Notes under the pieces: generated by a model
Seen by the model: only the letters and a program-made list of their open reading frames with translations
What the model was told of the DNA's origin: nothing
Databases searched by the model: none
Source of the DNA: Haloferula sp. BvORR071
GTDB taxonomy: Bacteria; Verrucomicrobiota; Verrucomicrobiia; Verrucomicrobiales; Akkermansiaceae
DNA: 64,000 nucleotides
Direction: 5' to 3'
Assembly: GCF_000739615.1 (NCBI RefSeq)
Contig: NZ_BATP01000035.1
Coordinates: 62,001 to 126,000, forward strand
Shown: positions 8,936 through 50,907 of the stretch, one piece after another
Numbering within the stretch: position 1 is the first letter of the stretch
Layout of the letters: every line of letters starts with the position of its first letter
Made by a program: the position numbers and the translations under genes

Positions 8936-8993
8936 ATCTCCCCGGTGCTTTCCGCCGGCCCATCCGAAGCTTCCCTGAAGGGAGGCTCCTGAC

Positions 8994-10520
8994 ATGATAT
9001 CCGGGCTATTCCATCGCCTGCGGAGTTCCCCCACGGGACTCACGGCAGCCGCCGGCTATGCGGCGATGCTGAGCGCTGTATTCGTCGGCTTTTTCAATGT
9101 GCCGCTGGCGCTGAAATTCCTCAGCGGCAAGGAATTCGGCCTGTGGAATGTCGTGGGACAGACCTTGGGCTATCTTCTTCTGCTCGACTTCGGGGTTTCC
9201 TGGTCGGCCAGCCGGATGCTGGTCGGCCCGATGCGGGAGGGAAACCAGAAGGAACTCAACTCGTGGTGGACCATCATCGTGGCGGTTCTGATTTTCCAAG
9301 GCCTGCTGGTGGCGGGCATCGGGCTCGGGGCTGCCAAGCAGATCATCGGCTCCTTTGAGGACCTTCCGCCGGACCTGATCCCGGCGGCAGAGGGTCTTTG
9401 GGTCGGGATGATCCTGATCAACGCCATCCAGCTTCCCTTCCGGGCCTATACCGGAGTCCTCTATTGCCAGGACCGCTGGTACATCATGCACGTGGTGACG
9501 ATCCTCACCTCGTGGATCAACCTGATCGCATTTGCCATCCTGCTTTACGCAGGCTTCAGGACCTACGCCTACCTCATTGCCAGCCTGCTCTCGGTGGGAA
9601 CCAACTCGCTGCTGATGCAGTATATGGTCCGTCGCAGCGGCGTGCGGCTGCAGCTGGTTTTCCGGGGTTTCGATTTCGAGAAGCTGCGGGTTCTCTTCCG
9701 GTACAGCAGCGGGGTTTTCTTGTTGGCCTTGGCCGGTCAGATCGCCTTCACCTCCCAATCGCTCATCCTGAGCAAGGTGATCGGCCTGGAGGCGGTGACC
9801 GTGTTTGTCGTCAGTTACAAGTCCTTCACGGTGATCAAGGAGATCCTGAAGCGTGCCTTCGATTCCTTCAGTCCGCGCTGGATGCAGCTCTACGTGAGCG
9901 GTGACAAACAGGCGGTCTGGAACGAGTGGAAGAACCTGATGGCCTGGCTCTTGCCCACTGCGATGATCGGGGCACTAGGCATCCTGATCTTCAATCGCTC
10001 CTTCTCCATGCTCTACGGCGGCCCCGCCAACCATGAGAGCCGGGTCTTCGACTTGTTCACCGCCGTGGGCCTGGTAGCGCAAGTCTTCACTTACTTCACT
10101 GAGTTCGTCTTCCCGATGTCGGGAAGGGTCAAGGGCCGGAGTATCGCGGGAATCATCGATGCTGTGTTGCAGATGACTTCCGGAATCATGCTCACGCATT
10201 GGTACGGTGCCACCGGCCTGATGCTTGGCGCGCTCATCGGGCCGGTCTGCGTTTCCATTCCCTACCTTTTGCTGAAGGCACCCGCTCAACTCGGCATCTC
10301 GCGCCGGACGATGGTCGGCGCGGTAGCCCGCACCTATGGGCTCACGCTGCTCTGCATGGCTGGCAGTTTCTTTGCCCTGAATACGCCAGCGGCCACGCCC
10401 GATACCTGGGGCTTGAGTGGCATCGAGTGCCTTCTCGGCGTCGGCTTGGCCTGCCTCGGGCTCTTCTGGTTCTGGAAATTCCGCGGCATTTTCATGAGCG
10501 CCAAACGAGTGGAAGCGTGA
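8994..10520 (+). CDS. Polysaccharide flippase (Wzx/MOP superfamily)
   Basis: 508 aa with about 12-14 hydrophobic segments spread over the whole length and few soluble loops, typical of oligosaccharide flippases that move polyprenyl-linked repeat units across the inner membrane. N-terminal segments such as AAMLSAVFVGFFNVPLALKFLSG and GLWNVVGQTLGYLLLLDFGVSW fit the polysaccharide biosynthesis protein family. A strong Shine-Dalgarno GGGAGG lies 10 bp before ATG 8994. Its last codons overlap the GTG of the next glycosyltransferase by 4 bp, indicating translational coupling. Confidence 0.8.
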   Translation: MISGLFHRLRSSPTGLTAAAGYAAMLSAVFVGFFNVPLALKFLSGKEFGLWNVVGQTLGYLLLLDFGVSWSASRMLVGPMREGNQKELNSWWTIIVAVLIFQGLLVAGIGLGAAKQIIGSFEDLPPDLIPAAEGLWVGMILINAIQLPFRAYTGVLYCQDRWYIMHVVTILTSWINLIAFAILLYAGFRTYAYLIASLLSVGTNSLLMQYMVRRSGVRLQLVFRGFDFEKLRVLFRYSSGVFLLALAGQIAFTSQSLILSKVIGLEAVTVFVVSYKSFTVIKEILKRAFDSFSPRWMQLYVSGDKQAVWNEWKNLMAWLLPTAMIGALGILIFNRSFSMLYGGPANHESRVFDLFTAVGLVAQVFTYFTEFVFPMSGRVKGRSIAGIIDAVLQMTSGIMLTHWYGATGLMLGALIGPVCVSIPYLLLKAPAQLGISRRTMVGAVARTYGLTLLCMAGSFFALNTPAATPDTWGLSGIECLLGVGLACLGLFWFWKFRGIFMSAKRVEA

Positions 10521-11692
10521 GCAGCGGCGGAGAAAAAAAGGCGATTGCCCTGTGCCTGGAGTATCCCATCGCCGATCGCGGCGGTGTCAGTGTGCTGGTG
10601 CAGGAATTGGTCGCGGGACTCTCGGAGGATTTCGCCATTCGCCTAGTCAGCCCGGAACCCAGCGAAGGCGTGCTTGCCAGCAAGATCGGCGCGCAGTTGG
10701 CCGGCCATCTTTCCTTCCAGTTGATGTCGGTTCCGCCTTCGCCCAGCTACTTCAAGCAAGCGCGAGCATTCGCGGAGCAGCTCGGTGACGTGCGTCTGGT
10801 CCACTTCCATTGCGGTGGCACCTTTGGCTGGGGCAACCGCTGTCCGGCGCCTTCGATTCCCGAGTATTGCTCCAAGGCGGGACTCAAAACCGTGTGGACC
10901 AACCATCTCACTGATCCTCCGCGGCGCGCCTTCGCGTCGGTTGGCCGGGCCCCGTGGATTTCCGATCTCGCGGCACCCATCGGCAAGCTTGGCAAGATCC
11001 GCCAAACCCGCGCGACGGATGCCGAGATCGCGGTTTCAGAGCACGACCGCGACTACCTCGATTCCCAATACCCTGCCGATCAGCAGCGGCGTCGCATCTA
11101 TCATTCCCGCTTGGAAGAAAGCCCCGCCCCGGGAACGGAGCGGGAGCCGCTGATCCTCGCTGTGGGTCATGTGGCCTACCGGAAGGGCCAGGACGTGCTC
11201 GTCCGCGCCTTCCTCAATATCGCCGGAACTGCTCCGGGATGGACTCTGGAGATTGCCGGTCACGATGGTGGCGACGGCTGCTGGCAGGAGATCGAATCCC
11301 TGTGCGCGAATCATCCGCAGGGCTCGCGGGTGAAACTCCTCGGCGCTCATCCACGTCCAGCCGAGCTCATGGGGCGGGCTTCCATCTTTGTGCAGCCCTC
11401 CTTGGAGGAAGCCCTTGGCCTCGCATTGCAGGAGGCCATCTTCCTCGGTTGTCCGGCGATTGGCAGCCGGGTGGGAGGCATCCCCGAAGTGATCGATGAA
11501 GGCGAGACCGGCCTGCTGATCGAGCCCAAGAATGTGGCCGCACTTTCCGCAGCGCTGTCACGGCTGTTAGTGGATGCCGCCCTGCGTGGCCAGATGGGCG
11601 CACGGGGCCGGGATGCGATCCTGGGGAAGGGGATGACCCGGCAGCGGATGATTGAAGCCCACCGCAGCCTTTATCTGGAGCTTCTCGCGTGA
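10517..11692 (+). CDS. Glycosyltransferase family 4
   Basis: 391 aa from GTG 10517, overlapping the flippase stop by 4 bp; the open frame extends back to 10199 but that part is a shadow of the flippase gene. GT-B fold: the N-terminal domain has EYPIADRGGVSVLVQELVAGL (acceptor side) and the C-terminal domain starts at LILAVGHVAYRKGQDVLVRAF. The EX7E donor motif is EALGLALQE, followed by AIFLGCPAIGSRVGGIPEVID. Retaining glycosyltransferase using a nucleotide sugar; donor unknown. It overlaps the next glycosyltransferase gene by 4 bp. Confidence 0.88.
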   Translation: MSSGGEKKAIALCLEYPIADRGGVSVLVQELVAGLSEDFAIRLVSPEPSEGVLASKIGAQLAGHLSFQLMSVPPSPSYFKQARAFAEQLGDVRLVHFHCGGTFGWGNRCPAPSIPEYCSKAGLKTVWTNHLTDPPRRAFASVGRAPWISDLAAPIGKLGKIRQTRATDAEIAVSEHDRDYLDSQYPADQQRRRIYHSRLEESPAPGTEREPLILAVGHVAYRKGQDVLVRAFLNIAGTAPGWTLEIAGHDGGDGCWQEIESLCANHPQGSRVKLLGAHPRPAELMGRASIFVQPSLEEALGLALQEAIFLGCPAIGSRVGGIPEVIDEGETGLLIEPKNVAALSAALSRLLVDAALRGQMGARGRDAILGKGMTRQRMIEAHRSLYLELLA

Positions 11693-36160: not shown

Positions 36161-37286
36161 AGCGAGAATCGTGATGGGCCGCCGCTGGCCGCAGCGCACC
36201 GTCGAGAAGCTCGCCTTCCCGGCGCTCCGGCGCTGGCGTGGCTGGCGCGGCGAAGGCCCCGAGCAAGGCGGCGTGCCCTTCGGAATCTTCCAAGAGAAGC
36301 AGGAGATCCGAGCAGGCCTCGTCAATGGCCGCATCATTGCCGATGGCCAATCCATCCCGCCCCTGCCGGAGCGTTCCGAGCTCATCGCCTGTGGTCTCCG
36401 TCAAGCGGGCTACGATTGGTGGCCAGTGCTCTGGACCCGCCGCGCCTCCGCCCGTCTGTTAGGTTCATCCCTCGTCCACACCGATCTCTATGGCCATGCC
36501 TGCTACGAGGCCATGTACGGTCCCCAGGCCACCGGCGATCCCGTCTGGCGCATCATCGGTAGCCATCCAGAGACCGAGTTGGCAGGAAGCTGGACCTCCC
36601 TCGTCTCCCGCTGGACCCGCGGCAGGAACTACTACCACTGGCTCACCGACGGCCTCACGCGCCTCCTTCACCTGCCATCCTTCCCGGAGGATACGAAGAT
36701 CCTCGTGCCACCCGGTCTCCCGCCCTTCGCCCTGGACAGCTTGAAGATGTTAGGTCTCGCCGACCGCGTCCGCGAAGCCACCGAGGAACACCTGCTGATC
36801 GAGAACTACCACTTCGCAGGACCCTCTGCTCTAACAGGCTGCGTGAATCCCATGGGCGTCGCTTGGCTGCGCAAGAGCTTCGGCCTGCCGCCCAAGCCCG
36901 CCGGTGGCCACCGCAAGATCTTCATCTCACGCCAGGGCACCACCCGCTCGGTCTCGAACCTCCGCGAAGTCGAGCACGCCCTCGCTGCCGATGACTGGGA
37001 GATCATCGATCCCGGCCGCCTTTCCTTCGGCGAGCAGCTTGAGACTTTCAAGCAGGCCCGCATCATCGCCGGCATCCACGGAGCGGGCATGACCAATGTC
37101 CTCTGGGCACCGCCCGGCACCCGCGTGGTGGAATTCATGCCGCGGAGCTTCCGCAATGCCTGCTACGAAGGCATCTCGCTTGTGCTGGGCCACTCCCACC
37201 AAGTGCTGATCTGCCAGTCGGACAGCCGCGGAAACATGCAGGTCTCCGCCGACCAGCTTCGTCAGGTATTAGCCGCCGGCGATTGA
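36132..37286 (+). CDS. GT61-family glycosyltransferase (DUF563)
   Basis: 384 aa; ATG 36132 overlaps the GT11 gene by 29 bp, and ATG 36150 is an alternative with an 11-bp overlap. Family signatures: GRNYYHWLTDGLTRLLHLPSF, then KIFISRQGTTRSVSNLREVE and ARIIAGIHGAGMTNVLWAPPGTRVVEFMP. GT61 members include bacterial capsule transferases related to beta-1,2-xylosyltransferases. The 3' end overlaps the convergent membrane protein gene by 25 bp. Confidence 0.88.
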   Translation: MDGSLSMWAKARIVMGRRWPQRTVEKLAFPALRRWRGWRGEGPEQGGVPFGIFQEKQEIRAGLVNGRIIADGQSIPPLPERSELIACGLRQAGYDWWPVLWTRRASARLLGSSLVHTDLYGHACYEAMYGPQATGDPVWRIIGSHPETELAGSWTSLVSRWTRGRNYYHWLTDGLTRLLHLPSFPEDTKILVPPGLPPFALDSLKMLGLADRVREATEEHLLIENYHFAGPSALTGCVNPMGVAWLRKSFGLPPKPAGGHRKIFISRQGTTRSVSNLREVEHALAADDWEIIDPGRLSFGEQLETFKQARIIAGIHGAGMTNVLWAPPGTRVVEFMPRSFRNACYEGISLVLGHSHQVLICQSDSRGNMQVSADQLRQVLAAGD

Positions 37287-38644
37287 AGTTCGGCCTCGGG
37301 CGGCACCACTTTCTTCCGGCGCCACCTCACCAGCAGTTGCCAGATCGCCAGCCCCAGCATTACCGAGGCGGTATCGAGCACCAGGTCCAGGACATCGTCC
37401 CAGCCAAAGCCGAAACCGAAGGCCCACTGGCAGAATTCCGATATCGCGCCTAGCGCTAGCGCCGGCCACATCGCACGCCGCGAGCCCATCAGCAGCCCTA
37501 GCAGCGCGGCCAGCATCGCAAAGCCCCCGAGGTGCGCGAATTTCTTCAACTCCGGCAGTCGCGATAGCAGCCAGCGCATCGGCCCGCCGCCGATCGCTTC
37601 CGGCGCTCCTTCTGCTGCGGATGGCACGGGTTGGGCAGCTGGCGCCGCAACCGGTGCTGCTTGAGGTGGTGCCACCACCACGACTGGTGCAGGAGCCGGC
37701 GCGGTGCTTGTGACCTCGGGCGTTGTTGCCGGGTGCTCGGCGATCACCGGGGGCGGAGCTGGTGCTGGCACAGGAGTCACAGGGGCCGGAGGTGGTGGCG
37801 GTGGCGGGGGAAGCACCGGAATCGGAAACGGTTTACCCATCGGGTGCCACGGGATCCACGGCCCCGGCAGACTCGAGTACCAGCCGAAGACCACCCACAA
37901 CCCGGCCGCAGCCACGACCTTCACCAGCGTCGTGCCTTCGCTCGCGACCCAGCGGCGGATTCCCCATGCCGCCCAGCCCAGCCACGCGGCCACCAGCAGG
38001 ATCAGCGCCGGAAACATCGCGGTCCGCCACCGCAGCGGCTGGACGCTGAAGGAGTAAATGGTGCACTCGCCCGACCGACCGGTGTTGGAGATCACGATCT
38101 TCGGCAGCGTCCCGTGCCGCGCCAGCGGCACCACGATGTCGCGATGCAAACGGGAGGTGTCCCCATACGCCGCCCACAGCAGCAGGTAGTCCGGCGCCAG
38201 CTTTCCATCCGCGTCGATCCACAGCAGCGTGGCCCGCGCATCGTCCCAGTCGTACTTTCCGTGCGCCAAGCCTTGGCAAGAGGTCTCGATCTGCACGTGC
38301 GCGAACTTCGCATCCGGCTGCTTCTTCCAGCGGAATTCCAGCCGCGGGAAATTCGGGTCAGACTTCAGCCGCAGCGGCTCCTTCCCATCCCCGCCCTCGG
38401 GCTTGCCCAGCGGCACCCGCATCACATCGTCCGGCGTGTGCCCCAGCGTCAGGGCCGCTTCCCCTGGCACCGCTTCGTAGCGGTATTGCCACAGCGCCCA
38501 GGTCAGCCCTGAGAGGAGTAGAAACGCGAGCAGATATCCGCAGACGGTGGCGGCGCGGCGAGGCACGCCGGAGGGAAGGGGAATTTCCTCCCCCGGGGAA
38601 GGCCAAAAGCCCCTTTGGGTCATCCGCACGCACGCACTCAGCAT
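37262..38644 (-). CDS. Membrane protein with VanZ-like domain and proline-rich linker
   Basis: 460 aa from ATG 38644 (ATG 38623 is also possible); the frame is open further upstream but that part is antisense to the GT2 gene. A first membrane segment (GYLLAFLLLSGLTWALW) is followed by an extracytoplasmic domain of about 160 residues, two more membrane segments (TAMFPALILLVAAWLGWAAW; VVAAAGLWVVFGWY), a proline/alanine-rich linker of about 90 residues with an eight-proline run, and a C-terminal four-helix VanZ-like domain (LKKFAHLGGFAML...EFCQWAF...DVLDLVLDTASVMLG). Domain order and the linker are unusual. The role is unknown; VanZ-like domains recur in verrucomicrobial exopolysaccharide loci. 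Confidence 0.68.
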   Translation of the reverse strand: MLSACVRMTQRGFWPSPGEEIPLPSGVPRRAATVCGYLLAFLLLSGLTWALWQYRYEAVPGEAALTLGHTPDDVMRVPLGKPEGGDGKEPLRLKSDPNFPRLEFRWKKQPDAKFAHVQIETSCQGLAHGKYDWDDARATLLWIDADGKLAPDYLLLWAAYGDTSRLHRDIVVPLARHGTLPKIVISNTGRSGECTIYSFSVQPLRWRTAMFPALILLVAAWLGWAAWGIRRWVASEGTTLVKVVAAAGLWVVFGWYSSLPGPWIPWHPMGKPFPIPVLPPPPPPPPAPVTPVPAPAPPPVIAEHPATTPEVTSTAPAPAPVVVVAPPQAAPVAAPAAQPVPSAAEGAPEAIGGGPMRWLLSRLPELKKFAHLGGFAMLAALLGLLMGSRRAMWPALALGAISEFCQWAFGFGFGWDDVLDLVLDTASVMLGLAIWQLLVRWRRKKVVPPEAELQSPAANT

Positions 38645-38686
38645 TCGCCAAGCACCCCTTCTCCCCGCTATCCCTTCTCCCGCCCG

Positions 38687-39484
38687 ATGGACTTTACCGT
38701 CATCACCGCGAATCTTAACCACGGCCATTTCCTGGCCGAGTGCCTCGCCAGCGTCGCGGAGCAAGCGGGCGTCACCCTCGAGCACCTCGTCATCGATGGC
38801 GGCTCCACCGATGACAGCGCCGCCATCGCCGCCCGCTTCCCGCATGTCACTTGGTCCCAAGGACCTGACAAGGGCATGTCCGATGCCATCAACAAGGGCT
38901 TCGACCGCGCCCAAGGCGATTGGGTCATCTGGCTGAATGCCGACGACCGCCTCAAGCCCGGCATCCTCCAGCAGGTCAAGCAAGCCGCCGCGAATACCAC
39001 CGCCGATATTCTCTACGGCGACTACGACTTCATCGATGAAAGCGGCCGCCTGATCCGCAGCATCCACATGCCGGACTGGTCGCCCTTCGTCCACGTCCAC
39101 CACTGCTGCTACATCGGCTCCACCGCCTGCTTCCTGAAGCGCGCCACCGTCATCGCCCCCGGCCATCGCCTCCGCGAGGACTTCCACTACGTCATGGATG
39201 GCGAGCTCTACGCCCGTCTCCATGCCAGCGGTCTGAACTTCGACCGCATGCGCCTGAATGTCGCCGACTTCCGCATCCACGGCGGCAATGCCTCCCTCCG
39301 TCACCTTGGCAAGCCCCGCGACCTCGAGACCATCCTCAAGGCCGAGCGCCAGCACGTCGAATCCCGCGCCATCCGCCGCGCCTACGGCCTCACGCTCTTC
39401 AGCGACCCCTACCTCAACGGCCTCGCCGACGGAGTCCTCTGGTTAGCCGCCAAAGGCTGGAAGGGCGTGATGAAGCTCAGGTAG
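38687..39484 (+). CDS. Glycosyltransferase family 2
   Basis: 265 aa from ATG 38687, 42 bp from the divergent VanZ-like gene. TVITANLNHGHFLAECLASVAEQ opens the GT-A fold, LEHLVIDGGSTDDSAAIAARF binds the nucleotide, and WVIWLNADDRLKPGIL supplies the DXD-like metal site (NADD). DFHYVMDGELYARLHASG is typical of WcaA/WcaE-like transferases of colanic-acid-type loci. Confidence 0.88.
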   Translation: MDFTVITANLNHGHFLAECLASVAEQAGVTLEHLVIDGGSTDDSAAIAARFPHVTWSQGPDKGMSDAINKGFDRAQGDWVIWLNADDRLKPGILQQVKQAAANTTADILYGDYDFIDESGRLIRSIHMPDWSPFVHVHHCCYIGSTACFLKRATVIAPGHRLREDFHYVMDGELYARLHASGLNFDRMRLNVADFRIHGGNASLRHLGKPRDLETILKAERQHVESRAIRRAYGLTLFSDPYLNGLADGVLWLAAKGWKGVMKLR

Positions 39485-40958: not shown

Positions 40959-41049
40959 GGCGACGCGTTTGCTCTAGCCCCGATCCGCCGTCATTGCAAT
41001 TGTCCGCTGGGCTGGGCTGAATTCCTCAACCGCCGCTCGCTGCTTGTCT

Positions 41050-41973
41050 GTGACTTCCTCGCCCCGCATCGCCGCCGTCTTCGCGTGCTTCAACCGCCGC
41101 GCCGCCGCGCTCGAGTGCCTCCGCCGCCTCCGCGCCCAGACCCGCCAACCGGATCTGGTCGTCGTCGGCGACAATGCCTCCACGGACGGCACCGCGGGGG
41201 CTCTGCAGGCAGAGGGCTGGGACCGCCTCATCATCCTCAATACCGGCGATAACCTTGGCAACGCCGGCGGCGTCCAGGTCGCCATGGACCACGCCTTCAT
41301 CGTCGGGAAAGTGGATGCGGTTTGGGTCCTCGATGACGACTCATGGCCCCGCGCCGGAGCTTTGGAAGCCCTCCTCGCCAGCGGCTTCGATTCCCAGCTC
41401 GTTCGCCACAGCCTCCAGATCGACCCCACCGGCGGCCACTACTCCTGGCCCCTTCCCATCCGCGCCGGACACGGCGACTGGCAGACCATCCGCCACCCGG
41501 ACGAATGGCCGCAGGATGCCGACCGCGCCGAAAGCCGCGCCTCTTGGACCGGCGCAATGGTCCCCCGCGCCGCATGGGAAAAGGCCGGCCCCGTCCTCGG
41601 TGAACTCTTCATCCGCGGGGAGGATGAGGAATATCCCCGCCGCCTCGCAGCTGCCGGCTTCCACTTTGAGGCCGTCCGCGACTCCGTGCTCGACCACCCC
41701 TCGGCCAAGAACCTCCGCCGCTGGCGCATCGGTCACAAGGACTTCTGGTTCGAGACCGGCCTGGAGGACTGGAAGTTCTACTACGAGGTCCGCAACACCG
41801 CCTGGCTCATGTTCCGCCAAGGCTCTGTCCTCCAAGGCTGGGCCATCGCCCTCCTCCACCTCGCCGCCACCCTTCTCCACGAAGGCTACTCGCCCTCCCG
41901 TTGGCACACTTGGCGCATGGCCTTGGCGGACGCCCGGACCGGCAAGTTGGGCCGCCGCGACTTCCCGAAGTAG
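41050..41973 (+). CDS. Glycosyltransferase family 2 (GlfT2/rhamnosyltransferase-like)
   Basis: 307 aa from GTG 41050 (TTG at 41044 adds two residues). RIAAVFACFNRRAAALECLRRLRAQT opens the GT-A fold, VVGDNASTDGTAGAL binds the nucleotide, NLGNAGGVQVAMDHA and WVLDDDSWP (DDD metal site) follow, as in galactofuranosyltransferases and rhamnosyltransferases. The C-terminal WRIGHKDFWFETGLEDWKFYYEVRNTAWL is typical of GlfT-like members. Because glf is in the same locus, use of UDP-Galf is plausible. Confidence 0.88.
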   Translation: MTSSPRIAAVFACFNRRAAALECLRRLRAQTRQPDLVVVGDNASTDGTAGALQAEGWDRLIILNTGDNLGNAGGVQVAMDHAFIVGKVDAVWVLDDDSWPRAGALEALLASGFDSQLVRHSLQIDPTGGHYSWPLPIRAGHGDWQTIRHPDEWPQDADRAESRASWTGAMVPRAAWEKAGPVLGELFIRGEDEEYPRRLAAAGFHFEAVRDSVLDHPSAKNLRRWRIGHKDFWFETGLEDWKFYYEVRNTAWLMFRQGSVLQGWAIALLHLAATLLHEGYSPSRWHTWRMALADARTGKLGRRDFPK

Positions 41974-41995
41974 TCCGCTCACGCCGTGTGCGGAC
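41973..41995 (+). repeat. Hairpin directly after the GT2 gene
   Basis: GTCCGC-T-CAC-GCC-GTG-T-GCGGAC is a perfect inverted repeat with one T-T mismatch, beginning at the stop codon of the GT2 gene. Followed by AAAGGATTTTCGG, so it could act as a weak terminator or RNA-stabilising stem. Confidence 0.45.
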
Positions 41996-42146
41996 AAAGG
42001 ATTTTCGGCTGCCCGCCCCTCGGACGGTCCTCCTCCGGGTGCACGGAGGCACTTCCCCCCGCATGCACTCTTCCCGGCCCTTCACCTTGCCTCCGCCCGC
42101 CAGATCCGGTTTCATTTAGGCCTCAATCCAGAAAGGAAGGAGCCCC

Positions 42147-42611
42147 ATGCCTCTCAATAGCGAAGTAGCTTTCACCGTCAGGTGGGTCCAACTGCTGGAC
42201 GCAGCCTTGGTCTGGCTCGCCTTTTGGATCTCATCCCTGTTCCGAGTCCCCCTTAGGGAACTCCTCACGACGGTGGAATCTACCCATGGAGACCTGACCC
42301 TCTGGCAGATGAGCTGGGTCCTCTATATTGTCGTGCCTTTCACCCCGCTGGTCCTTGAGTTCTTTCACTTCTACCGCCGCCCGCGCCCCCCGTCCGCAGC
42401 CTTGGCATTCGCACAGCTCTTCAAGGCCGCCATCTGCATGACCTTGCTGGTCGGCGCGGTGGTTGTCTGGGCCCAGCTCGGCGGGGTCAGCCGCCTCATC
42501 CTGATGACCGGAGCCATCTTGACCTTGGCTGTCTTGTTCCTCCGTGAGCGCGTCTTTTTTGCCTTCTTCGACCGCGAGAGCTCCGATTCCACCGGCAGAT
42601 CGGTTCCCTAA
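42147..42611 (+). pseudogene. Truncated N-terminal copy of the initiating sugar transferase
   Basis: 154 codons that align from end to end with the first ~140 residues of the sugar transferase at 45558: both contain LLQLLDAALVW/VQLLDAALVW, SLFRVP, LWQMSWVLYIVVPFTPLVLEFF, FYRRPR and SRLIL, roughly half of all positions being identical by eye. It keeps the four N-terminal membrane segments but stops at ERVFFAFFDRESSDST, before the nucleotide-binding-like middle and the catalytic domain. The upstream element CCGGTTTCAT is shared with the full gene (42106-42115 and 45523-45532). It could be a dead remnant or a translated membrane-only protein; coding is still intact, so expression is possible. 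Confidence 0.72.
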
Positions 42612-42680
42612 GTCTCATGGAACCTGTCTGAAGCACGGGAACGCCCCATCTTATCCTGCCGTGCTCCATCCTTTGGTCCC

Positions 42681-43463
42681 TTATCGGGGAGGGGATGCCT
42701 CCGCGGCTCCTTCGGCAATTTTCCCCTCATGCAGCGGGTGGATCGCGTCCCATCTCGCGAACTCTGACAGATCGGTCCCTTTTAGATAAGTCGACTCGTC
42801 CATGGAGATCTCGATGCCCCGGGAGTCCAGAAGCCTCTTGCTCAAGAGCAACTGCCCCGAGCCGGATTTCACCACGCCGACTTCCATGAGAGTCCGTCCC
42901 CCTTCGCGCAGTTGCTTCTTCAGGAGCGCCTTCATCCCGTTCGTTCGCTCGGATCCGAGGGTCTGGCCCAAATTTCGGGAAAAGTCCTCGAAGATCTGCT
43001 TTGCCAGATCGCTGCAATCCGCGAGCTTGATATAGCGCTCTCCAACAGTGGAGACCAACTTCGCCCGCTTCAATTCAGCCGCTTTGAATTGCTCCAGAGC
43101 CTTCGCGATCTCCCGCCGTACCAACGGGCGTTCCTCTTTAGTGATCTGGAAGTAGCTGTAGATCCGGGGCGATACCTCGCCGGTGTCTTCCTCGAATACA
43201 TTCACCGCCAGGAGCGGCACGAGCTCAGGGGGCAGCGCTTGGTGTTCCCGATCATACTTCACCTCGTCCTGCGGTGGGACGGCGTCCGGGAGGGCTTGGT
43301 TTCTCACCGTTCCGGCAGGCTCCGGGGGAGCTCCCTCGGGCCGACCGGCCTCACCTTGGTGGGACCGGAGAAACACGGCGAACCCAAGGACAAGCACGAC
43401 GAGGACCGCCACTAAGGTCCGCCGCTTCCATGCTCCGGCTGAAGTTGCTGCCTCGGGCCTCAT
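42681..43463 (-). CDS. Single-pass membrane protein of unknown function
   Basis: 260 aa. After a basic N-terminus there is one membrane segment (TLVAVLVVLVLGFAVFL, about residues 16-32), then a low-complexity Pro/Glu-rich stretch, and a mostly helical, charged domain (EERPLVRREIAKALEQFKAAELKRAKL). SGSGQLLLSKRLLDSRGIEISMDES comes near the end. No family recognised. It is the third gene of a minus-strand group with the lipoprotein (12 bp upstream) and the Tat protein. Confidence 0.6.
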   Translation of the reverse strand: MRPEAATSAGAWKRRTLVAVLVVLVLGFAVFLRSHQGEAGRPEGAPPEPAGTVRNQALPDAVPPQDEVKYDREHQALPPELVPLLAVNVFEEDTGEVSPRIYSYFQITKEERPLVRREIAKALEQFKAAELKRAKLVSTVGERYIKLADCSDLAKQIFEDFSRNLGQTLGSERTNGMKALLKKQLREGGRTLMEVGVVKSGSGQLLLSKRLLDSRGIEISMDESTYLKGTDLSEFARWDAIHPLHEGKIAEGAAEASPPR

Positions 43464-43475
43464 GCAAGCACCCTA

Positions 43476-44213
43476 TCAGGGAGAAGCCTTTAGATAAAAG
43501 AACTCGCTGCGTTCCCCTTGGATCGGGTTCAGGGAGAATTTCTCGATTCGGCCATCTCCCTTCTCCCGTTCAACTTGAAAGGTCAGACCTCGCGTTTCCG
43601 GGGTGCTGTGGGCCAGGTCGGACAGCCCTTGTATCCCCGTCTGCTCGAGCGTGACCCGCATGCGGAGACCGAATTGGTCGTGAAGTTGCTCGCGAAGCAG
43701 GATCTCAAGACTCTCCAGCGGCAGATCCTTGGTTTCTTTCCGGAGCCCGGCGATGAAATCCCTCACGATCCCGGAGAGTTCCTCATCGGGAAGCGCTTCG
43801 ATCGTTACCGTCTTGCCGATGGGAAAGACCAGCGAAGAAGCGGACTGCCCTCGTAGGGTATTCGCCCTGCCGAAGGCTGTCTGCAACCTTTCGGCAATGG
43901 CAGGGACCGCCGCATAGGGAACCCCGATTTGCTTGAGGACGGACTCTTCGGCTTTGCCTCCCGAACTCGCAATTCTAGGCAGGGTCTCCAGCGCCGAAGA
44001 TCCCACGACTACTCCTTTCCCAACGCTTTGCGGTGAGGACTCAGGTGAGTGTTTCATGGCCTTGGATTGATCTATTTTGTCATTGGAGCCGGTCTTTTTC
44101 CGATCTTGGTCCTGCTCTTTCGGAGAGCAACCCGCCCCCAGACAACAAAGAACCACGGCGGGAATATAGCCCACCTTGGAGAAGCGGAAAAATCCGGCCT
44201 CAATTATAACCAT
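43476..44213 (-). CDS. Lipoprotein of unknown function
   Basis: 245 aa from ATG 44213, which overlaps the 3' end of the Tat gene by 10 bp; an upstream ATG at 44282 would bury the signal sequence. Signal peptide VGYIPAVVLCCLGAGC with lipobox LGAGC predicts a lipid-anchored, periplasmic or outer-membrane protein. A Ser/Lys/Glu-rich linker is followed by a domain with LETLPRIASSGGKAEESVL and DLPLESLEILLREQLHDQFG. No family recognised. It shares an operon with its two neighbours, so they probably work in one envelope process. Confidence 0.62.
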   Translation of the reverse strand: MVIIEAGFFRFSKVGYIPAVVLCCLGAGCSPKEQDQDRKKTGSNDKIDQSKAMKHSPESSPQSVGKGVVVGSSALETLPRIASSGGKAEESVLKQIGVPYAAVPAIAERLQTAFGRANTLRGQSASSLVFPIGKTVTIEALPDEELSGIVRDFIAGLRKETKDLPLESLEILLREQLHDQFGLRMRVTLEQTGIQGLSDLAHSTPETRGLTFQVEREKGDGRIEKFSLNPIQGERSEFFYLKASP

Positions 44214-45154
44214 TCGAGCAAATAGTCGGCCGTAGTCGTGGTGGCATTGGAAATCGTGAGCTTCCGCCGCAGTTGCCCGCAATCGTGGCCCGCGACGTAG
44301 ATTTGAAACGGGGTTTGGTCCTCGCCATTTGCAAATCTCCCCACAGGATCATTATACTGCCCCGACCGCATCCAAGCAATGCACAAGCTGTCTTCCTGTA
44401 CCGCGGTTCCATAGTACATCGGTCCTAGCGGCTCGTTGAATTGGTTGTTGATCCGGACCTGAACAAGCCGGAGGAACACCATTGGAAGAGCTAGTGTCGC
44501 GGGAGGAGTTTGATGTTCGGGGAGGCCAGCCACGATTTGGCCTTCATACTGCGCATGGGCATAGTAGCCGGTACTGCCGAACATGCCCGGGTGGCTCGCG
44601 ATTGGGTTTGTGCCTTTAACGATCTTGTCGGGCTTCACGACGTAGCACTTCGCCGAGCCTACAACATTGCCTTGGTGCACGGCTTCAATCAGGGATCCTT
44701 TCGGCCTGCGGCCGCCGTTGATCGGGGTGGACGGAGTAACCGCTTGGATACGGAGGAGAACCGTGCCGCTGCCGTCGTTGACGGTTTCAAAAATCGTGAT
44801 GCAGCCGGGTTCGTCGCCTCTTACTCTGAACTCAACTTCGGCGTCTTTCGGATGCACCGTCGCAGTGATCGTACAGTAGTTGGGCGGGGCTGAATTCGCA
44901 GGGGTGGCAGTGTCATGCGGCAAGGTCATCGGGGCATTGTTGCCATATATCCAATCGTACTTCCCCGTAAACTCCTGCATCTCCTCACGATATCCATGCT
45001 GATCCAAGCCTAGGTCGAAGTCCTTCATCTCCACCGTGACATCACTGCTTTCGACCGTGGTGCCACGGGCTCTTTCAAGGGATGCCACATTCCAAGCGAT
45101 CAAACTGACTGCAGTTGCTCCGCCGGTCCGCTTCAGGAACTGGCGGCGGGTCAT
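44204..45154 (-). CDS. Tat-exported protein of unknown function
   Basis: 316 aa from ATG 45154, which puts the twin-arginine motif TRRQFLKRTGG right at the N-terminus; ATG 45244 would add 30 residues before it. The hydrophobic core ATAVSLIAWNV is followed by a mature protein rich in beta strands and aromatic residues (YDWIYGNNAPMTLPH, YYAHAQYEGQIVAGLPEHQ, FQIYVAGHDCGQLRRKL). Tat export implies folding or cofactor loading in the cytoplasm. It has two cysteines in the second half and one CTITATVH near the start. No family recognised. It is the first gene of the three-gene group. Confidence 0.62.
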   Translation of the reverse strand: MTRRQFLKRTGGATAVSLIAWNVASLERARGTTVESSDVTVEMKDFDLGLDQHGYREEMQEFTGKYDWIYGNNAPMTLPHDTATPANSAPPNYCTITATVHPKDAEVEFRVRGDEPGCITIFETVNDGSGTVLLRIQAVTPSTPINGGRRPKGSLIEAVHQGNVVGSAKCYVVKPDKIVKGTNPIASHPGMFGSTGYYAHAQYEGQIVAGLPEHQTPPATLALPMVFLRLVQVRINNQFNEPLGPMYYGTAVQEDSLCIAWMRSGQYNDPVGRFANGEDQTPFQIYVAGHDCGQLRRKLTISNATTTTADYLLEWL

Positions 45155-45244
45155 GGAGTTGCTGGGGCCGTCGCTTCCAGTTGATTCCTGATTGATGCGC
45201 GGACGGAGCAGCTGGCTGCCTAGAGTAGGTGGCTTTCCTATCAT

Positions 45245-45557
45245 CAGATTTATTAAGTCTTCTGCTAGAATCTCTGTGCCAGTCAAGAAATGTCCGGTTT
45301 CTATCCCGTGGCTGGAGGGGCCGTCCCTTCTGGCTCGATCCTGACGACCGGCGGGACCGTGTCTTTTTCGCCTTCTTCGGCCGCGGGAACCGCGATCCCA
45401 AGGGCGGATAGGGCCCATGAGCCTTAGGGAGCGCCCAGCTTCCCATCCGCAAAAGCACGCAGTCCCTCCCATGAAACCGTAGGGTCCAGCCCTGAGCTTG
45501 GGCTTGCTTTACCCTGACCCTTCCGGTTTCATCGCGGCCGTTCGGTAGGAATTTTTC
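45245..45557 (+). pseudogene. Intergenic region with decayed piece of the sugar transferase copy
   Basis: This 313-bp region has no intact gene. From about 45325 to 45420 it resembles the 3' end of the truncated copy: CTGACGACCGG matches CTGATGACCGG at 42501, then, after a gap of about 30 bp, GTCTTTTTCGCCTTCTTCGG matches GTCTTTTTTGCCTTCTTCGA at 42552, and similarity continues to the stop (RVFFAFFGR against RVFFAFFDR). The remainder holds the leader of the sugar transferase at 45558, including the CCGGTTTCAT element. It appears to be a relic of a tandem copy upstream of the full gene. Confidence 0.6.
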
Positions 45558-46967
45558 ATGGCTGTTGGTCGCAAAGAAGCGTTCTCGATCCAATTGCTCC
45601 AACTGCTCGACGCAGCCTTGGTTTGGTTCGCTTTCTGGGTGGGTTCGTTATTCCGCGTTCCGATCCGCGACTTCCTCACCACGGATGATAAATCCGTCGA
45701 CATGAGCCTCTGGCAGATGAGCTGGGTGCTCTACATCGTGGTGCCCTTCACCCCGCTGGTCCTCGAATTCTTCCAATTCTACCGCCGGCCGCGGACCAAG
45801 ACCCCTCTGCAGGCCTTCAGCCAGCTCTTCAAGGCCTTGCTCTTCATGGCCTTGGTCATCGGCATGATGGTCACCTTCGCCCAGATCGCTGGTGCCAGCC
45901 GCCTGATCCTCGCCCTTGGCGGAGTCCTGACCCTGGTGGTGCTCTTCATCCGCGACCGCCTCTTCCACTCCTACTTGCGTCGCCAAGAGCTCCTCGACTA
46001 CGCCAAGGAGCGCATCATCATCGCCGGCTCCGATGAGGAGATTGATTCCTTCTTCGGCGAGGTGGATGAGGAGGACAGCAGTCTCTGGCAGATCGTCGCG
46101 CGTTTCGATCTTTCGGAGCGTCCGGTTGAGGAGCTCTACAGCCTGCTCAAGCAGAACTCCGTGGAGCGCGTGATCTTCACCGCCCGCGATACCGGGTTCG
46201 GCAAGGTCGCCGAAGGGGTGGAAGCCTGCGAGCTCCAAGGGGTGGAGGCATGGATTGTGGCCTCCTTCATCCGCACCCAGATTGCCCGCCCGACCTTCGA
46301 TGTCGTCGGCAAGAAGCCGATGCTGGTGCTGCGCTCGACTCCCGAGCTCTCTTGGGAGCTGGCTTGCAAGGCGGTGATCGACCGCGTCGGTGCCTTCTGC
46401 CTCATCCTAGGCACTTCGCCACTGTGGATCTTCGCCATCATCGGCATCAAGATTGCCAGCCCGGGTGCCCCGGTCTTCTTCCGCCAGCGCCGCGCCGGCC
46501 GCTACGGCAAGCCCTTCCGGATGTGGAAGTTCCGCACCATGGTGCCGGATGCGGAAGCCCAGCTCGCCAAGGTCAAGGAGGAGCACGGCAACCACATGGA
46601 AGGCCCGGTCTTCAAGCTCGACCGCGACCCGCGCGTCTTCGCCTTCGGTGCCCTGCTGCGCAAGCTGAGCATCGATGAGCTGCCCCAGCTCCTCAATGTC
46701 CTGCGCGGCCACATGAGCCTGGTCGGCCCGCGTCCTCTGCCGATCTATGAGGTGGACGCCTTCGAGAAGTCCGAGCACCGCCGCCGTCTGAGCGTGAAGC
46801 CGGGGATCACCTGCGAGTGGCAGGCCGGCGGCCGCAACAAGATCACCAGCTTCGAGCAGTGGGTGGAAATGGACCTCCGCTACATCGACAACTGGTCCCT
46901 CTGGCTCGATATCAAGATCTTGCTCCGCACCATCCCCGCGGTTTTGCTGGGGCGCGGCGCGAACTGA
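45558..46967 (+). CDS. Polyprenyl glycosylphosphotransferase (initiating sugar transferase)
   Basis: 469 aa. Four N-terminal membrane segments, then a Rossmann-like soluble part (RIIIAGSDEEIDSFF), a fifth hydrophobic helix (AFCLILGTSPLWIFAIIGIKIA) and the bacterial sugar transferase catalytic domain: PVFFRQRRAGRYGKPFRMWKFRTM, LSIDELPQLLNVLRGHMSLVGPRP and RLSVKPGITCEWQAGGRN. It transfers a sugar-1-phosphate to undecaprenyl phosphate and so starts repeat-unit synthesis (WcaJ/ExoY type). Probably the first enzyme of the whole locus. A truncated copy lies at 42147. Confidence 0.95.
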   Translation: MAVGRKEAFSIQLLQLLDAALVWFAFWVGSLFRVPIRDFLTTDDKSVDMSLWQMSWVLYIVVPFTPLVLEFFQFYRRPRTKTPLQAFSQLFKALLFMALVIGMMVTFAQIAGASRLILALGGVLTLVVLFIRDRLFHSYLRRQELLDYAKERIIIAGSDEEIDSFFGEVDEEDSSLWQIVARFDLSERPVEELYSLLKQNSVERVIFTARDTGFGKVAEGVEACELQGVEAWIVASFIRTQIARPTFDVVGKKPMLVLRSTPELSWELACKAVIDRVGAFCLILGTSPLWIFAIIGIKIASPGAPVFFRQRRAGRYGKPFRMWKFRTMVPDAEAQLAKVKEEHGNHMEGPVFKLDRDPRVFAFGALLRKLSIDELPQLLNVLRGHMSLVGPRPLPIYEVDAFEKSEHRRRLSVKPGITCEWQAGGRNKITSFEQWVEMDLRYIDNWSLWLDIKILLRTIPAVLLGRGAN

Positions 46968-46979
46968 GCCGGTTTTCCG

Positions 46980-48944
46980 ATGAGGTGGGTTTCAGGTGTT
47001 TGTTTCGCCCTGGCGTTGGTCTTCGGGGTCTCCTTGGGTGGCCAGACGATCGATTACACTTGGGGTCCCGCCTTGCTGGCCCTGTCGCTCGCCTTGCTGA
47101 GCGCTGCGGGAGGAGCCTCAGCCTTGAAGGAGCGGGGGAAGGGGACTTGGATCGCATTGACCTTCCTCTTCCTAGCCTGGGGCTGGGTCCTCTGGCGCTG
47201 TTGGGGCAGTCCGGTGCAGGAGTTCGCCCGCGCCGATGCCCTTCTGGTCGGCGGTATGATCGCGGGCTGCTTCTGGGGCCTTCTGGCTGCCCCAAGTGGC
47301 GCGGCGGTCCGGATCGTGATGCTGGCGCTGGCCGTTCTGGGCCTGGTGAATCTGGCCTTCGTGCTTTGCCAGGTGAGGGATTCCTCCTTCTCCTGGCCCT
47401 TCGCCAGCCGTCCCGGGTTTTTCCCTTCCGGCCTTTTCGGGCACTACAATCACCTCGCGGACTTCTCCGTGGTTTCGGTGGCCTTGCTGGCGGCGCGCTT
47501 CTTCTTCGCTGGGGATTCCAAGCTTGAGCGGATTGCCCAGGCCTTGGGCGTCATTGCCGCGACCGCCTGCGTGTTCATCTCCACCTCGCGTGGTGGCATG
47601 GTCGCGCTCTGTGCAACTGGAGCGACCCTGATGGTCCTCGCAGCGTTGATCGCATGGCGGGACAAGTCGAAGAAAGCCCGCCTGCTGGCCATCGCCGCAC
47701 TGGCGGGCCCGCTCATCTTGGCCTTGGTCGCGGTTCCGGTCTTGAAGCATTTCCAAGAGCGGCGCGGGATTCAGGACCTCAGCCTGAGCCAATTCGCCGA
47801 CAACCGTACCCGCTTGCAGTTGTACGGCACTGCAGTGGACATCTCCATGAACCACCCGCTCAGCGGCGGCGGCAGCCGCAGCTACGGCTGGGAAAAATAC
47901 GCCGCTTGGAAGCCGGAGGAAGGCGGCATGCTGCCCCGGAATGATGACTTTGTTCACAACGAGTTCCTCCAGTCGGCGGTCGAATATGGCTGGCTCGGAG
48001 CTCTTCTGATTGGCTGTGGGGTGCTCTCCGCCGTGCTCTGTTCGGTGGCCGGCCTCTTCTCTGCCGATCCCTCCTCGCGCTTCCCGCGCGGGCCGATCGA
48101 TGCCCTGATGTGTGGCGGTCTGGCCGCGATGGCGGGCACCTTGGTGAATTCGAATTTCAGCTTCGTGACCCACACGATTCCCGGCGCGATCTACCTCGGC
48201 CTGGCGATTGGGTTTGCCTTGCCGCGGCGGGCGGAAGAGGTCTACCCATCCTCCCGCGCCACCTTGGTGGCGGCGCTTCTGCTCCTTCCCTTGGCCGGGA
48301 TTCTGGCCGTGACGGGCATTCGCGGGACCAGGGTTTACCGGGCGGTGTGGCCGGTGAGTTTTGGCAAGGAGCGTCTCGGCGTTTACGCGCCGGGTATTTC
48401 GCTGGAGCTGATGGGTGACGCCTTGGAACACTGGCCGAGTGCCCACCTCGCGGGTCGCGCCGGACACGTGGCGCGCCGGGCGGCGGAGCGCCAGGGGCAG
48501 CCGGAGGATGAAGTCCGCGACTGGCACAGCAAGGCGGTGGAATTCTACAATCGGGCTGGCAAGCTCAACCCCAACGATCCCGAGTGGGCGCTCAACCGCG
48601 CGATCGCTCTCTCCGCCCTGAACCGCAACGATGAGGCCGACCGCAGCTACGAGGAGGCGGTCCGCCTGCAGGGTGGCATGGAAGGCAGCTTCCGCGCCCG
48701 CTACTACTTCGCCCAGCACCTCTTCCACCGCTACCATAGCGCTTGGGAAAGTCGCGCCTGCACCCCGGGCCAAGCGCTCACCGGTTTCATTCGCGCGCGC
48801 GACCTGCTCAAGGAAGCCAACAGCATGACCGAGCAGTGGGTGCGGGGTAAGGAAGAGGCCGCCTTCCAGAAGAACCTCGAGGATATGATCGCCTTCCTGG
48901 AGGGTGCTCATGTCACCCCCGAGCCCCTGCTGGAGCAGAAATAA
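46980..48944 (+). CDS. O-antigen ligase-family protein with C-terminal TPRs
   Basis: 654 aa. About 11 membrane segments, with the Wzy_C/WaaL loop signatures GLFGHYNHLADFSVVSVALLAARF, RTRLQLYGTAVDISMNHPLSGGGSRSYGWEKYAAW and VHNEFLQSAVEYGWLGALLIG. The last ~170 residues are soluble and helical with a tetratricopeptide-like repeat (NRAGKLNPNDPEWALNRAIALSALNRNDEADRSYEEAVRLQGG). Fits the TPR-tailed exopolysaccharide ligases found next to exosortase loci. It starts 12 bp after the sugar transferase. It may be the polymerase for this polymer, the 7349 protein being for a second one. Confidence 0.85.
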   Translation: MRWVSGVCFALALVFGVSLGGQTIDYTWGPALLALSLALLSAAGGASALKERGKGTWIALTFLFLAWGWVLWRCWGSPVQEFARADALLVGGMIAGCFWGLLAAPSGAAVRIVMLALAVLGLVNLAFVLCQVRDSSFSWPFASRPGFFPSGLFGHYNHLADFSVVSVALLAARFFFAGDSKLERIAQALGVIAATACVFISTSRGGMVALCATGATLMVLAALIAWRDKSKKARLLAIAALAGPLILALVAVPVLKHFQERRGIQDLSLSQFADNRTRLQLYGTAVDISMNHPLSGGGSRSYGWEKYAAWKPEEGGMLPRNDDFVHNEFLQSAVEYGWLGALLIGCGVLSAVLCSVAGLFSADPSSRFPRGPIDALMCGGLAAMAGTLVNSNFSFVTHTIPGAIYLGLAIGFALPRRAEEVYPSSRATLVAALLLLPLAGILAVTGIRGTRVYRAVWPVSFGKERLGVYAPGISLELMGDALEHWPSAHLAGRAGHVARRAAERQGQPEDEVRDWHSKAVEFYNRAGKLNPNDPEWALNRAIALSALNRNDEADRSYEEAVRLQGGMEGSFRARYYFAQHLFHRYHSAWESRACTPGQALTGFIRARDLLKEANSMTEQWVRGKEEAAFQKNLEDMIAFLEGAHVTPEPLLEQK

Positions 48945-49063: not shown

Positions 49064-49870
49064 TCAATTCAGGGTGGTGATCTGCTTCCAATTGATATTG
49101 TTCTCGGCGATTTCGCCCAGCAGCGAGCGGACCTCCGAATCCGCAGTCTTCAGATCCGGCAGGCTGCCCCAGTTGAAACGGGGGTCTTCCGTGCCCGCCC
49201 GGAAGCGCATGGTTACCAGGATGTAGGCCCACTTCTGGGCCTGGCCCTTGGCGAGCCGGTCACGCATATCCACCAAGGTCCGCGCCTTGTGGCTCTCGGT
49301 GATCATCTCGTTGCCCACGAAGAAATAGTAGGTCAGGTAGTTGAACTCGACCTCGGTCTTCTCGGTCTCTGAGGTCGCGATCCACTCCTTCCTTTTCGAA
49401 ATCAACTTGCGGGTTGGAAGGGTGCCGGCCTTGGGCAGAGCGATTCCCGCTTTCCCCGCGTCGACGATCTCGTGGCCATTGGCCGTCTGGCAATCGATCC
49501 GCGACTGCTCCGAAAGGTAGATCTCGTGGCCTTGGGCGCCCATGCAGCGCTCCGGGCGGTGGATCGAGTTCGCGAGGTCTTGGCCGGAGAGCACGATCGA
49601 AAGCTCGGCCTGATCCTCAATCCCGCGCATGTAGAGTGAATTCCAAGTCCCCGGGCGCACGATCTTGCAACTGGCCTTGGAGAAGCGGGTATCGCTCGCC
49701 AGCGAGTTGATTTCCTTGTCCGTCGGAAGAACAGGCGTGGTCGTCCAGTCGCCGATTTCCTTCGGAATCTCCAGGCTCATGGCCGACTCGACCACCTTGA
49801 AGGGCGGAAGCATGAAGATCGAGGATAGGCCGACCCCGAGGATCGCTGCCAGAAGGGTGGACCGCTTCAT
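49064..49870 (-). CDS. epsI: Exosortase-associated protein EpsI (DUF3485)
   Basis: 268 aa with an N-terminal hydrophobic segment (STLLAAILGVGLSSIFML) and the DUF3485 pattern IPKEIGDWT, IHRPERCMGAQGHEI (usual HRPERC form), LTYYFFVGNEMITES and KAYILV-like strands. EpsI partners the exosortase in exopolysaccharide-linked protein sorting; the substrate-specific function is not settled. Its ATG overlaps the exosortase stop by 4 bp, so the two are translationally coupled. Confidence 0.86.
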   Translation of the reverse strand: MKRSTLLAAILGVGLSSIFMLPPFKVVESAMSLEIPKEIGDWTTTPVLPTDKEINSLASDTRFSKASCKIVRPGTWNSLYMRGIEDQAELSIVLSGQDLANSIHRPERCMGAQGHEIYLSEQSRIDCQTANGHEIVDAGKAGIALPKAGTLPTRKLISKRKEWIATSETEKTEVEFNYLTYYFFVGNEMITESHKARTLVDMRDRLAKGQAQKWAYILVTMRFRAGTEDPRFNWGSLPDLKTADSEVRSLLGEIAENNINWKQITTLN

Positions 49871-50907
49871 GGGACGGTGGTGGGGGCCGAGGTGACATCG
49901 CCGCGCTCGTGGACAATTCTCGGTTCCACGTCGGAATCCTTATCCCCGGACTTCCGGCCGACCACATGGCGCACGGCCTTCTTCTTCGGCTTCTTCCATG
50001 GCAGGCCTTGCTCCAAGATGGAGTGGACCAGCAGCAAAAGGCAGAGGGAGATCGGGTAGAAGATCACCAAGCCGGACCAGTCGTGCCAAGTGTGGCGGGC
50101 AAAGTCCGGATTGCCGTATTCGGCGATCACGAAGATCGAGGTCAGGCGCAGCATATTGCCGAAGATCGCCAGCGGGAAGGCGGCCAGCAGCAGGATCCCC
50201 TTCTTCCACAGGCTGACCTTGGCCAAGTAGGCCCAGACCGTGGAGATCATGATCAGGGCCATCAGCGAGCGGATACCGCCGCAGCCCTCGTCGATCTCCA
50301 GCGGCTCCCAGAGCTTGCTGGCGGATTCGATCTTGGTGCCACTCACGTGGACCTTCACGCCGAAGAGTTCCGAACCCCACTGAGACAACTGCGTAGAGAG
50401 CATCTGCAGTTTCACCGTGGCTTGCTGGAACTCCGGCACCGGAACGGCCAGCCACAGGAAAAAGAAGGGGAAGAACAAGAGCCGGGAAAGCTGCCAGCCC
50501 CAGAGATAGAGGGAAGAACCCCAGAGGATCATCGGCAGGCCGGCGATCGCCAGGCGCGGCTGACCGCAGCGATGGGAGGCCACGAAGAAGAGGATCCCGA
50601 GCAGCAGCATGGGCAGGCCGAGCCAGTGGCTCTTTCCTTCCTTGGCAAGGCGCACGAGGTTTTTCCACTGCCAGGCAACCAAGCCGACCATGATGATCGG
50701 GACCATGAAGCCGTGCTCATAACGGGTCTCCTTGTTCCACGCGCTCTGCAGCCAGTAGAGCGGGGAGCGGTTGCCGATCACCCCGAAGCCGCCAATCACG
50801 GCGTAGTAAACCGCGATGATGGCCCCGCAGATCGCAGGCCCGAGCCAAGTGGGCAGGGCACTCTCCGGGGGTGACGAGTGCGATGGCGGGTTCGGACTTT
50901 CCATCAT
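49867..50907 (-). CDS. Exosortase
   Basis: 346 aa from ATG 50907 (ATG 50904 is adjacent; the frame is open further but not supported). It has about eight membrane segments. The transpeptidase-like triad is present: C209 in IDEGCGGIRSL, R254 in FGNMLRLTS and H275 in HTWHDWSGLVIF. It would cleave a C-terminal PEP-CTERM-like sorting signal and join the protein to a surface glycan or lipid. No protein with such a C-terminus is visible in the window, so substrates must be elsewhere. Its divergent neighbour prs begins 67 bp away. Confidence 0.9.
   Translation of the reverse strand: MMESPNPPSHSSPPESALPTWLGPAICGAIIAVYYAVIGGFGVIGNRSPLYWLQSAWNKETRYEHGFMVPIIMVGLVAWQWKNLVRLAKEGKSHWLGLPMLLLGILFFVASHRCGQPRLAIAGLPMILWGSSLYLWGWQLSRLLFFPFFFLWLAVPVPEFQQATVKLQMLSTQLSQWGSELFGVKVHVSGTKIESASKLWEPLEIDEGCGGIRSLMALIMISTVWAYLAKVSLWKKGILLLAAFPLAIFGNMLRLTSIFVIAEYGNPDFARHTWHDWSGLVIFYPISLCLLLLVHSILEQGLPWKKPKKKAVRHVVGRKSGDKDSDVEPRIVHERGDVTSAPTTVP

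Follow-up and report, generated by a model that had tools for sequence, protein, structure and literature searches.

A lone copy of the membrane half of an initiating sugar transferase, a gene relic and a three-gene operon beside the full-length gene in Haloferula sp. BvORR071

We have analysed a stretch of 64,000 nucleotides (the window, to which all positions below refer unless a locus or contig is named) from the draft genome of Haloferula sp. BvORR071 (contig NZ_BATP01000035.1, positions 62,001 to 126,000 of the forward strand). It includes a polysaccharide locus in which a full-length initiating phosphoglycosyl transferase gene (F; 45558..46967, plus strand, 469 amino acids (aa)) is accompanied by a lone copy of its own four-helix membrane half (S; 42147..42611, plus strand, 154 aa). 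The two are separated by three minus-strand genes (A, B and C; the trio) and by a 79-nucleotide (nt) relic. We are fairly confident of the history that we propose for this arrangement: the 5' part of F would have been copied, a second short copy would have arisen and the trio would have settled between the two short copies. Our favoured explanation combines this history with a role for S as a membrane partner or tuner of F and, taken as a whole, we consider it a little short of an even call.

From its sequence, F is a large monotopic phosphoglycosyl transferase, the family that includes WbaP, WcaJ and EpsZ. It scores 362.6 bits with TIGR03025 (cut-off 295.55). Its catalytic domain is recognised by PF02397 (213.3 bits, cut-off 27, E 2.5e-63) and its central domain by PF13727 (26.9 bits, cut-off 25, E 5.8e-6). 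The closest named matches are from Verrucomicrobiota, including Luteolibacter marinus and metagenome-assembled genomes of the Akkermansiaceae, and the F protein of one relative, G003, is 88% identical.

S resembles the membrane half of such enzymes. An earlier note on this DNA, made by a model from the letters alone, had described a truncated but open copy here, and this is what we find: the frame runs from the ATG at 42147 to the stop at 42611, 154 codons without stops, and residues 4-144 show 59% protein identity to the start of F. S ends directly after predicted helix 4 and is a homologue of the first ~145 residues of F. The two differ in length by one whole codon, with no change of frame across about 141 codons. 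At the DNA level, identity is 76% in the best ungapped block, which is 212 nt long, and 68% across the 426 bases that align. Unlike the large transferases, S lacks the catalytic domain (a Pfam scan finds no PF02397 in it) and its PF13727 score (15.7 bits) is below the cut-off of 25; TIGR03025 aligns over positions 1-119 of 445 with 19.8 bits (E 0.00039; cut-off 295.55). Hydropathy indicates four membrane helices, and an AlphaFold2 model built from an alignment of nine sequences predicts long helices at residues 5-31, 52-72, 84-109 and 114-148 (mean predicted local distance difference test score (pLDDT) 74).

In the Haloferula genome only S and F match the membrane half. In 56 other genomes, 43 have one match each, every one in a frame of at least 468 aa. 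When the search was extended to 386 genomes of the order, 242 matched the membrane half and, among the matches listed and checked, there was no further genuine stand-alone copy; this check did not extend to the frames of less than 400 aa in G361 (two rows, near the start of a contig), G309 (one of 372 aa) and G115 (one of 339 aa). Frames of less than 400 aa in G332, G228 and G297 were rejected as candidates since the contig ends inside the gene, as was one in G366, where a full gene is broken between frames.

The relic (45352..45430, plus strand) lies just before F. It aligns without gaps over 79 nt with 42543-42621, the 3' end of S, at 73% identity, and the homology extends 10 nt past the stop codon of S. 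The local score is 74; the best of 1000 dinucleotide shuffles reaches 40 and the reverse-complement control 33. A decayed piece at about 45325-45420 had been proposed in the earlier note, with a start slightly too early, and the lack of an alignment above random was named beforehand as what would refute it; 0 of 1000 shuffles reach the observed score. The piece is therefore real, and it does come from a transferase copy, though not from the N-terminal half of F. The N-half scores only 26, which is matched by 270 of 1000 shuffles, and the best match within the whole of F (score 37, 6 of 1000 shuffles) is in the catalytic part, at about 46390-46445, and far below 74. A weak 18-nt extension to the left (45334-45351) is without significance when compared with the whole S frame, where 141 of 2000 shuffles equal it, and marginal when compared with a chosen stretch (26 of 2000). 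Since the relic matches the 3' end of S past the stop and not the N-half of F, the sequence comparison identifies it as the remnant of a second short, S-type copy that once stood directly before F. The truncated form would therefore be older than the second duplication. To the right of the relic, 45467-45557 aligns with its counterpart in G003 at a score of 80, where the best of 500 shuffles reaches 35, so that the sequence from about 45467, adjoining the relic, reads as the native upstream region of F. A third, inverted copy of the upstream motif that S and F share (see below) was considered at 45471-45479 and rejected; it aligns with the ordinary F upstream sequence of G003.

The site without the insert is found in relatives. 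A gene for a GT2-type glycosyltransferase, the left neighbour of S in the window, is followed directly by F in G003, G010, G002 and G005, and this is the comparison with close relatives that the earlier note had suggested. No S or trio gene lies upstream of F in 24 annotated loci (some of which represent the same genome twice). Other genes do occur there. A different minus-strand gene lies between the glycosyltransferase gene and F in three loci (L032, L035 and L038) and one lies just upstream of F in four others (L036, L005, L006 and L015); these are 25-35% identical to part of window 37262-39355. Because different minus-strand genes occupy it in several relatives, the boundary left of F is a place of gene turnover.

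S is likely to have arisen by duplication from F in this lineage, as judged from trees that include 12 of 31 collected rows (L029, a wrong gene, was excluded and others, mostly more distant, were omitted by choice). In the protein tree S is sister to the F of its own genome (support 99/94); the branch leading to S has a length of 0.83 and that of F a length of 0. Approximately unbiased (AU) tests weakly reject grouping F with G003 (p 0.040) or with G003 and G010 (p 0.036) to the exclusion of S. Recent gene conversion does not account for the resemblance between S and F: in helices 1, 2 and 4, 30 of the 66 codons that specify the same residue in both differ.

The copied segment appears to include sequence upstream of the gene. 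As noted earlier, CCGGTTTCAT is common to the regions upstream of both intact copies; it forms the right end of TTGC(C/T)T-17-TTTCAT, which occurs as TTGCCT-17-TTTCAT before S (42087..42115, plus strand) and as TTGCTT-17-TTTCAT before F (45504..45532, plus strand). Both were located by pattern match. The strict pattern TTGCNN-17-TTTNAT, drawn up after the sequences had been seen, occurs only at S and F (45504) in the 64 kb on both strands (128,000 bases). The element begins 54-60 nt before the start codon in S, F, G003, G010 and G005; the strict form is present in 3 of 15 upstream regions of F in relatives and absent from the other 12. The region before S also aligns with the F upstream regions of G003 (score 42) and G010 (score 38), with 0 of 500 shuffles reaching either score. 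We infer that the element is a promoter that was copied along with S.

Two routes could lead to the present order. In both, the upstream element and the first ~145 codons of F would have been copied between F and its left neighbour to give S, which would encode the four membrane helices and lack both the cytoplasmic and the catalytic domain. In the first, a circular molecule with the trio and an S 3' end on it would recombine with S by one crossover, giving S - trio - S 3' end - F. In the second, a tandem duplication would give two S copies, the trio would be inserted and the second copy would erode, giving the same order; the two routes fit the observations equally. The most likely course is tandem duplication and later insertion of the trio with the second short copy, the three-gene operon (for a Tat-leader protein, a lipoprotein and an anchored protein) settling between the two copies and the right-hand copy decaying to the 79-nt relic. 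The earlier note had proposed much the same: duplication of the 5' part with its upstream element and arrival of the trio both stand, and the source of the relic is corrected. It is very improbable that an assembly artefact or mis-joined strains produced this order. The genome is a draft (7.8 Mb, 66 contigs) and only a single strain of the species was compared. Against this, S, the trio, the relic and F lie together inside one contig of 169,590 bases, the difference between S and F, at about a third of positions, is too large for mis-joined strain copies, and the assembly is 96% complete with 0.07% contamination.

Whether S has been retained as a protein was examined in several ways. The ratio of replacement to synonymous change (dN/dS; distance-based) is 0.49 on the S branch (95% interval 0.28-0.95) and 0.05 on the F branch. 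Change along S is uneven. F, G003 and G010 share 105 identical residues, 37 of which are changed in S. The blocks of helices 1, 2 and 4 hold 62 of these residues, with 9 changed; the N-tail, helix 3 and the C-tail hold 43, with 28 changed. With 12 equal bins, 2 of 20000 permutations are as uneven; with 8 bins, none of 20000 is. Because the frame is kept and the amino-acid change is uneven, S has probably been retained, under loose constraint, as a protein of the membrane over the greater part of its history.

A number of results weigh against parts of the favoured explanation. With respect to origin, support in the DNA tree is only 75/67 and no tested alternative is rejected (AU p 0.13, 0.24 and 0.29), and S, F, G003 and G010 give site patterns of 12 : 11 : 7. 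With respect to the promoter, a sigma-70 consensus scan flagged neither the S nor the F element (2 found, 1.1 expected), and the regions before S and before F align with each other only marginally (score 28, 36 of 2000 shuffles). With respect to retention, the bias towards synonymous substitutions in S for which the earlier note had asked to look is mixed. The dN/dS interval below 1 is in its favour. The polarised changes on the S branch, counted where F, G003 and G010 agree, are not: 14 are synonymous and 55 replacements (one more site gives a stop if taken alone), a synonymous share of 20% compared with 16% expected under neutrality (p 0.23). Only codons 46-78 of S stand out in this test (p 0.014, several segments having been tried). 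The retention of helix hydropathy holds only at the 10% level (100 in 1000 simulations). The N-terminal motif GRKEAFSIQ is lost, 8 of 11 conserved residues being changed in S and 0-2 of 11 in five full-length controls. A stop-free frame survives without selection in 212 of 5000 simulations at 0.55 substitutions per site and in 746 of 5000 at 0.2, with insertions and deletions not counted. Helix 3 is variable in full-length relatives as well, and its change in S therefore says nothing special about pairing. Finally, a Foldseek search with the S model gave no match in the Protein Data Bank (PDB) at E <= 0.001, and WbaP was outside the 40 matches listed.

It is quite conceivable, if still the lesser probability, that S is a leftover: a protein once held for a time, now drifting to loss and without present function, with the trio as the sole working part of the insert. 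The near-neutral synonymous share, the lost motif and the frequency of stop-free survival fit this, as do the long S branch in the protein tree (that of F being 0) and the decay of the sister copy to a relic. This would not be expected to go with uneven change along S, an intact frame whose length differs from that of F by a whole codon only, a retained upstream element and a dN/dS interval below 1. Even if S were only a leftover, the locus would still show an operon settling between gene copies without a recognisable transposase.

In the favoured explanation the promoter copied from F would drive expression of S, and the protein would insert as a four-helix bundle and pair with the matching bundle of F, as in the stalk of the WbaP dimer; a partner without a catalytic domain would then lower or tune the start of polysaccharide synthesis. 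In the parts of PMC10942596 available to us, the four-helix bundles of the WbaP dimer form a stalk with modest contact in helix 3. Similarly, the accessible parts of PMC12802240 suggest that the activity of EpsZ depends on its dimer state and on a helper that favours the dimer. Together these suggest that a free bundle could pair with F and tune it. The helper described there, EpsW of Myxococcus, is comparable with S as proposed here: each would be a distinct protein that adjusts an initiating transferase by acting on its dimer state. EpsW differs in being a single-domain response regulator, whereas S would duplicate the membrane domain of the enzyme itself. A further point weighs on the other side: most of the WbaP dimer contact described in PMC10942596 is in the cytoplasmic domain, which S lacks. 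On balance we regard a role of S as a partner or tuner of F, which is argued by analogy, as tentative and about as probable as the view of S as a drifting leftover.

Partial gene duplication is a known source of dominant-negative or regulator copies in which the contact domain is kept and the active domain is missing. S would likewise be a partial paralogue that has a contact domain and lacks the active one. A more elaborate version, in which S is a dedicated regulator derived from the membrane half of F, forms mixed bundles that set polysaccharide initiation and was kept when the trio was installed, so linking surface-protein export to polysaccharide, seems unlikely. What the accessory domains of large phosphoglycosyl transferases do, the membrane bundle included, is called unclear in PMC10942596, and the sharing of undecaprenyl phosphate between polymers is raised as an open question in PMC12802240. 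A lone bundle that occurs naturally next to the enzyme from which it derives offers a ready-made way to find out what this domain does.

S might also act apart from F, as the partner of another four-helix enzyme (for example, a PglF-like dehydratase) or of the adjoining trio. Large transferases and PglF-like dehydratases have a similar four-helix domain (PMC10942596, in the parts available), and S and the trio are both missing from the 24 annotated loci. Helices 1, 2 and 4 of S, however, largely retain the residues of F, and a paralogous trio on contig C63 of the same genome has no S beside it. We consider such a role improbable.

The trio occupies the minus strand between S and the relic. Gene C (42681..43463, 260 aa) is probably membrane-anchored; gene B (43476..44213) is lipoprotein-like by eye, with an N-terminal hydrophobic stretch and a cysteine, and overlaps the end of gene A (44204..45244), which carries a probable twin-arginine translocation (Tat) leader of the ITRRxFLKRTGGATVAxLVAWN type. 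The starts of all three are our choice. Their G+C content is 58%, compared with 62.5% for the window. The genes had first been described as unrelated; there are indeed three, and they form an operon of which a diverged second copy exists in the genome. This copy, on C63 (L075), has the same gene order (A' 10247-11362, B' 9519-10247 and C' 8739-9476, stop codons excluded). The proteins are 36% (A), 21% (B; pairwise E 2e-8) and 27% (C) identical to those of the window and the G+C content is near 46%. No transferase copy lies beside it and the trio therefore does not depend on S. We infer that gene products of the trio include an exported protein held at the cell surface, together with two partners in the envelope.

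The complete trio was found in none of the 115 other genomes searched (116 including its own). Gene A has matches in six others, mainly over the leader, gene B in none of the 115, and gene C a single weak match in G003 (E 2.3e-4). A two-row profile of gene C gives weak matches in 5 other genomes of the 386, the best in G012 (E 1.2e-8). This distant relative is at G012:C14:91873-92514 (in L124), where no Tat-leader gene is visible in the 15 kb examined. Neither B nor C belongs to a Pfam family at cut-off. The Tat signal of gene A is just below cut-off with TIGR01409 (16.5 bits, cut-off 16.7) and below it with PF10518 (16.1, cut-off 22.7), and TRRQFLKRTGGAT is visible. A single-sequence structure model of A was useless (mean pLDDT 36).

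The trio includes no transposase, integrase or phage gene according to Pfam, NCBIfam or PADLOC, and PHROGs gives weak matches only, for gene C (E 0.018 and 0.034). There are seven pairs of inverted repeats of at least 14 nt in 41500-46700, none of which brackets the trio ends. The idea that the trio is plasmid, phage or defence cargo received no support, with only gene A searched in plasmids and phage records not searched. Between S and gene C there is a weak hairpin (z -1.1 on the plus strand and -2.3 on the minus strand) and no clear terminator; the terminator scan found 5, with 5.2 expected. Rfam gave no match at the gathering threshold anywhere in the window.

The leader of gene A belongs, by sequence, to a wider set of export cassettes. 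A search of the 116 genomes gave matches at 26 places in 15 genomes, and the weakest of these resemble ordinary Tat signals. In a set of such genes (window 45172; L075:11296; L076:8715 and 11288; L077-L081, L067 and L082-L107) a nearly fixed leader is followed by a variable mature part, and often by lipoprotein-like or membrane-anchored genes. RR.FLKR.GGA is invariant in ten peptides, which had themselves been chosen by means of a similar pattern. Of the 14 strongest places (E up to 1e-9), 9 have in the flanking DNA examined either a GT25/Core-2-branching fusion or a 'YTVAFD...VFRN' glycosyltransferase; among these nine, G014 supplied the queries, two represent one locus, G006 has fragments only (a GT25-type gene beside its Tat-leader gene, L077:2548-3035) and flank lengths differ. 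The other five of the 14, four of the Haloferula genome and one of G010, have no such gene there. The set looks like an export-plus-glycosylation cassette, and a literature search, in the sources as far as available, gave nothing on a cassette of this kind.

The remaining genes of the locus flank this region. The left neighbour (41044..41973, plus strand) is assigned to the GT2-type glycosyltransferases by PF00535 (E 2e-11) and by synteny; it scores 78.7 bits with the GlfT1 model, below the cut-off of 330. The right neighbour of F (46980..48944, plus strand) is a Wzy_C/O-antigen ligase family protein (PF04932, E 8.3e-19). We call the locus exosortase-associated because an exosortase gene (49867..50904, minus strand) scores above the TIGR02602 cut-off (145.9 bits, cut-off 105.55). 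As in other exosortase-associated polysaccharide loci, the exosortase, the Wzy-type ligase and the transferase lie near each other; the locus differs in that its EpsI-like gene is below cut-off and in the Tat leader carried by the trio.

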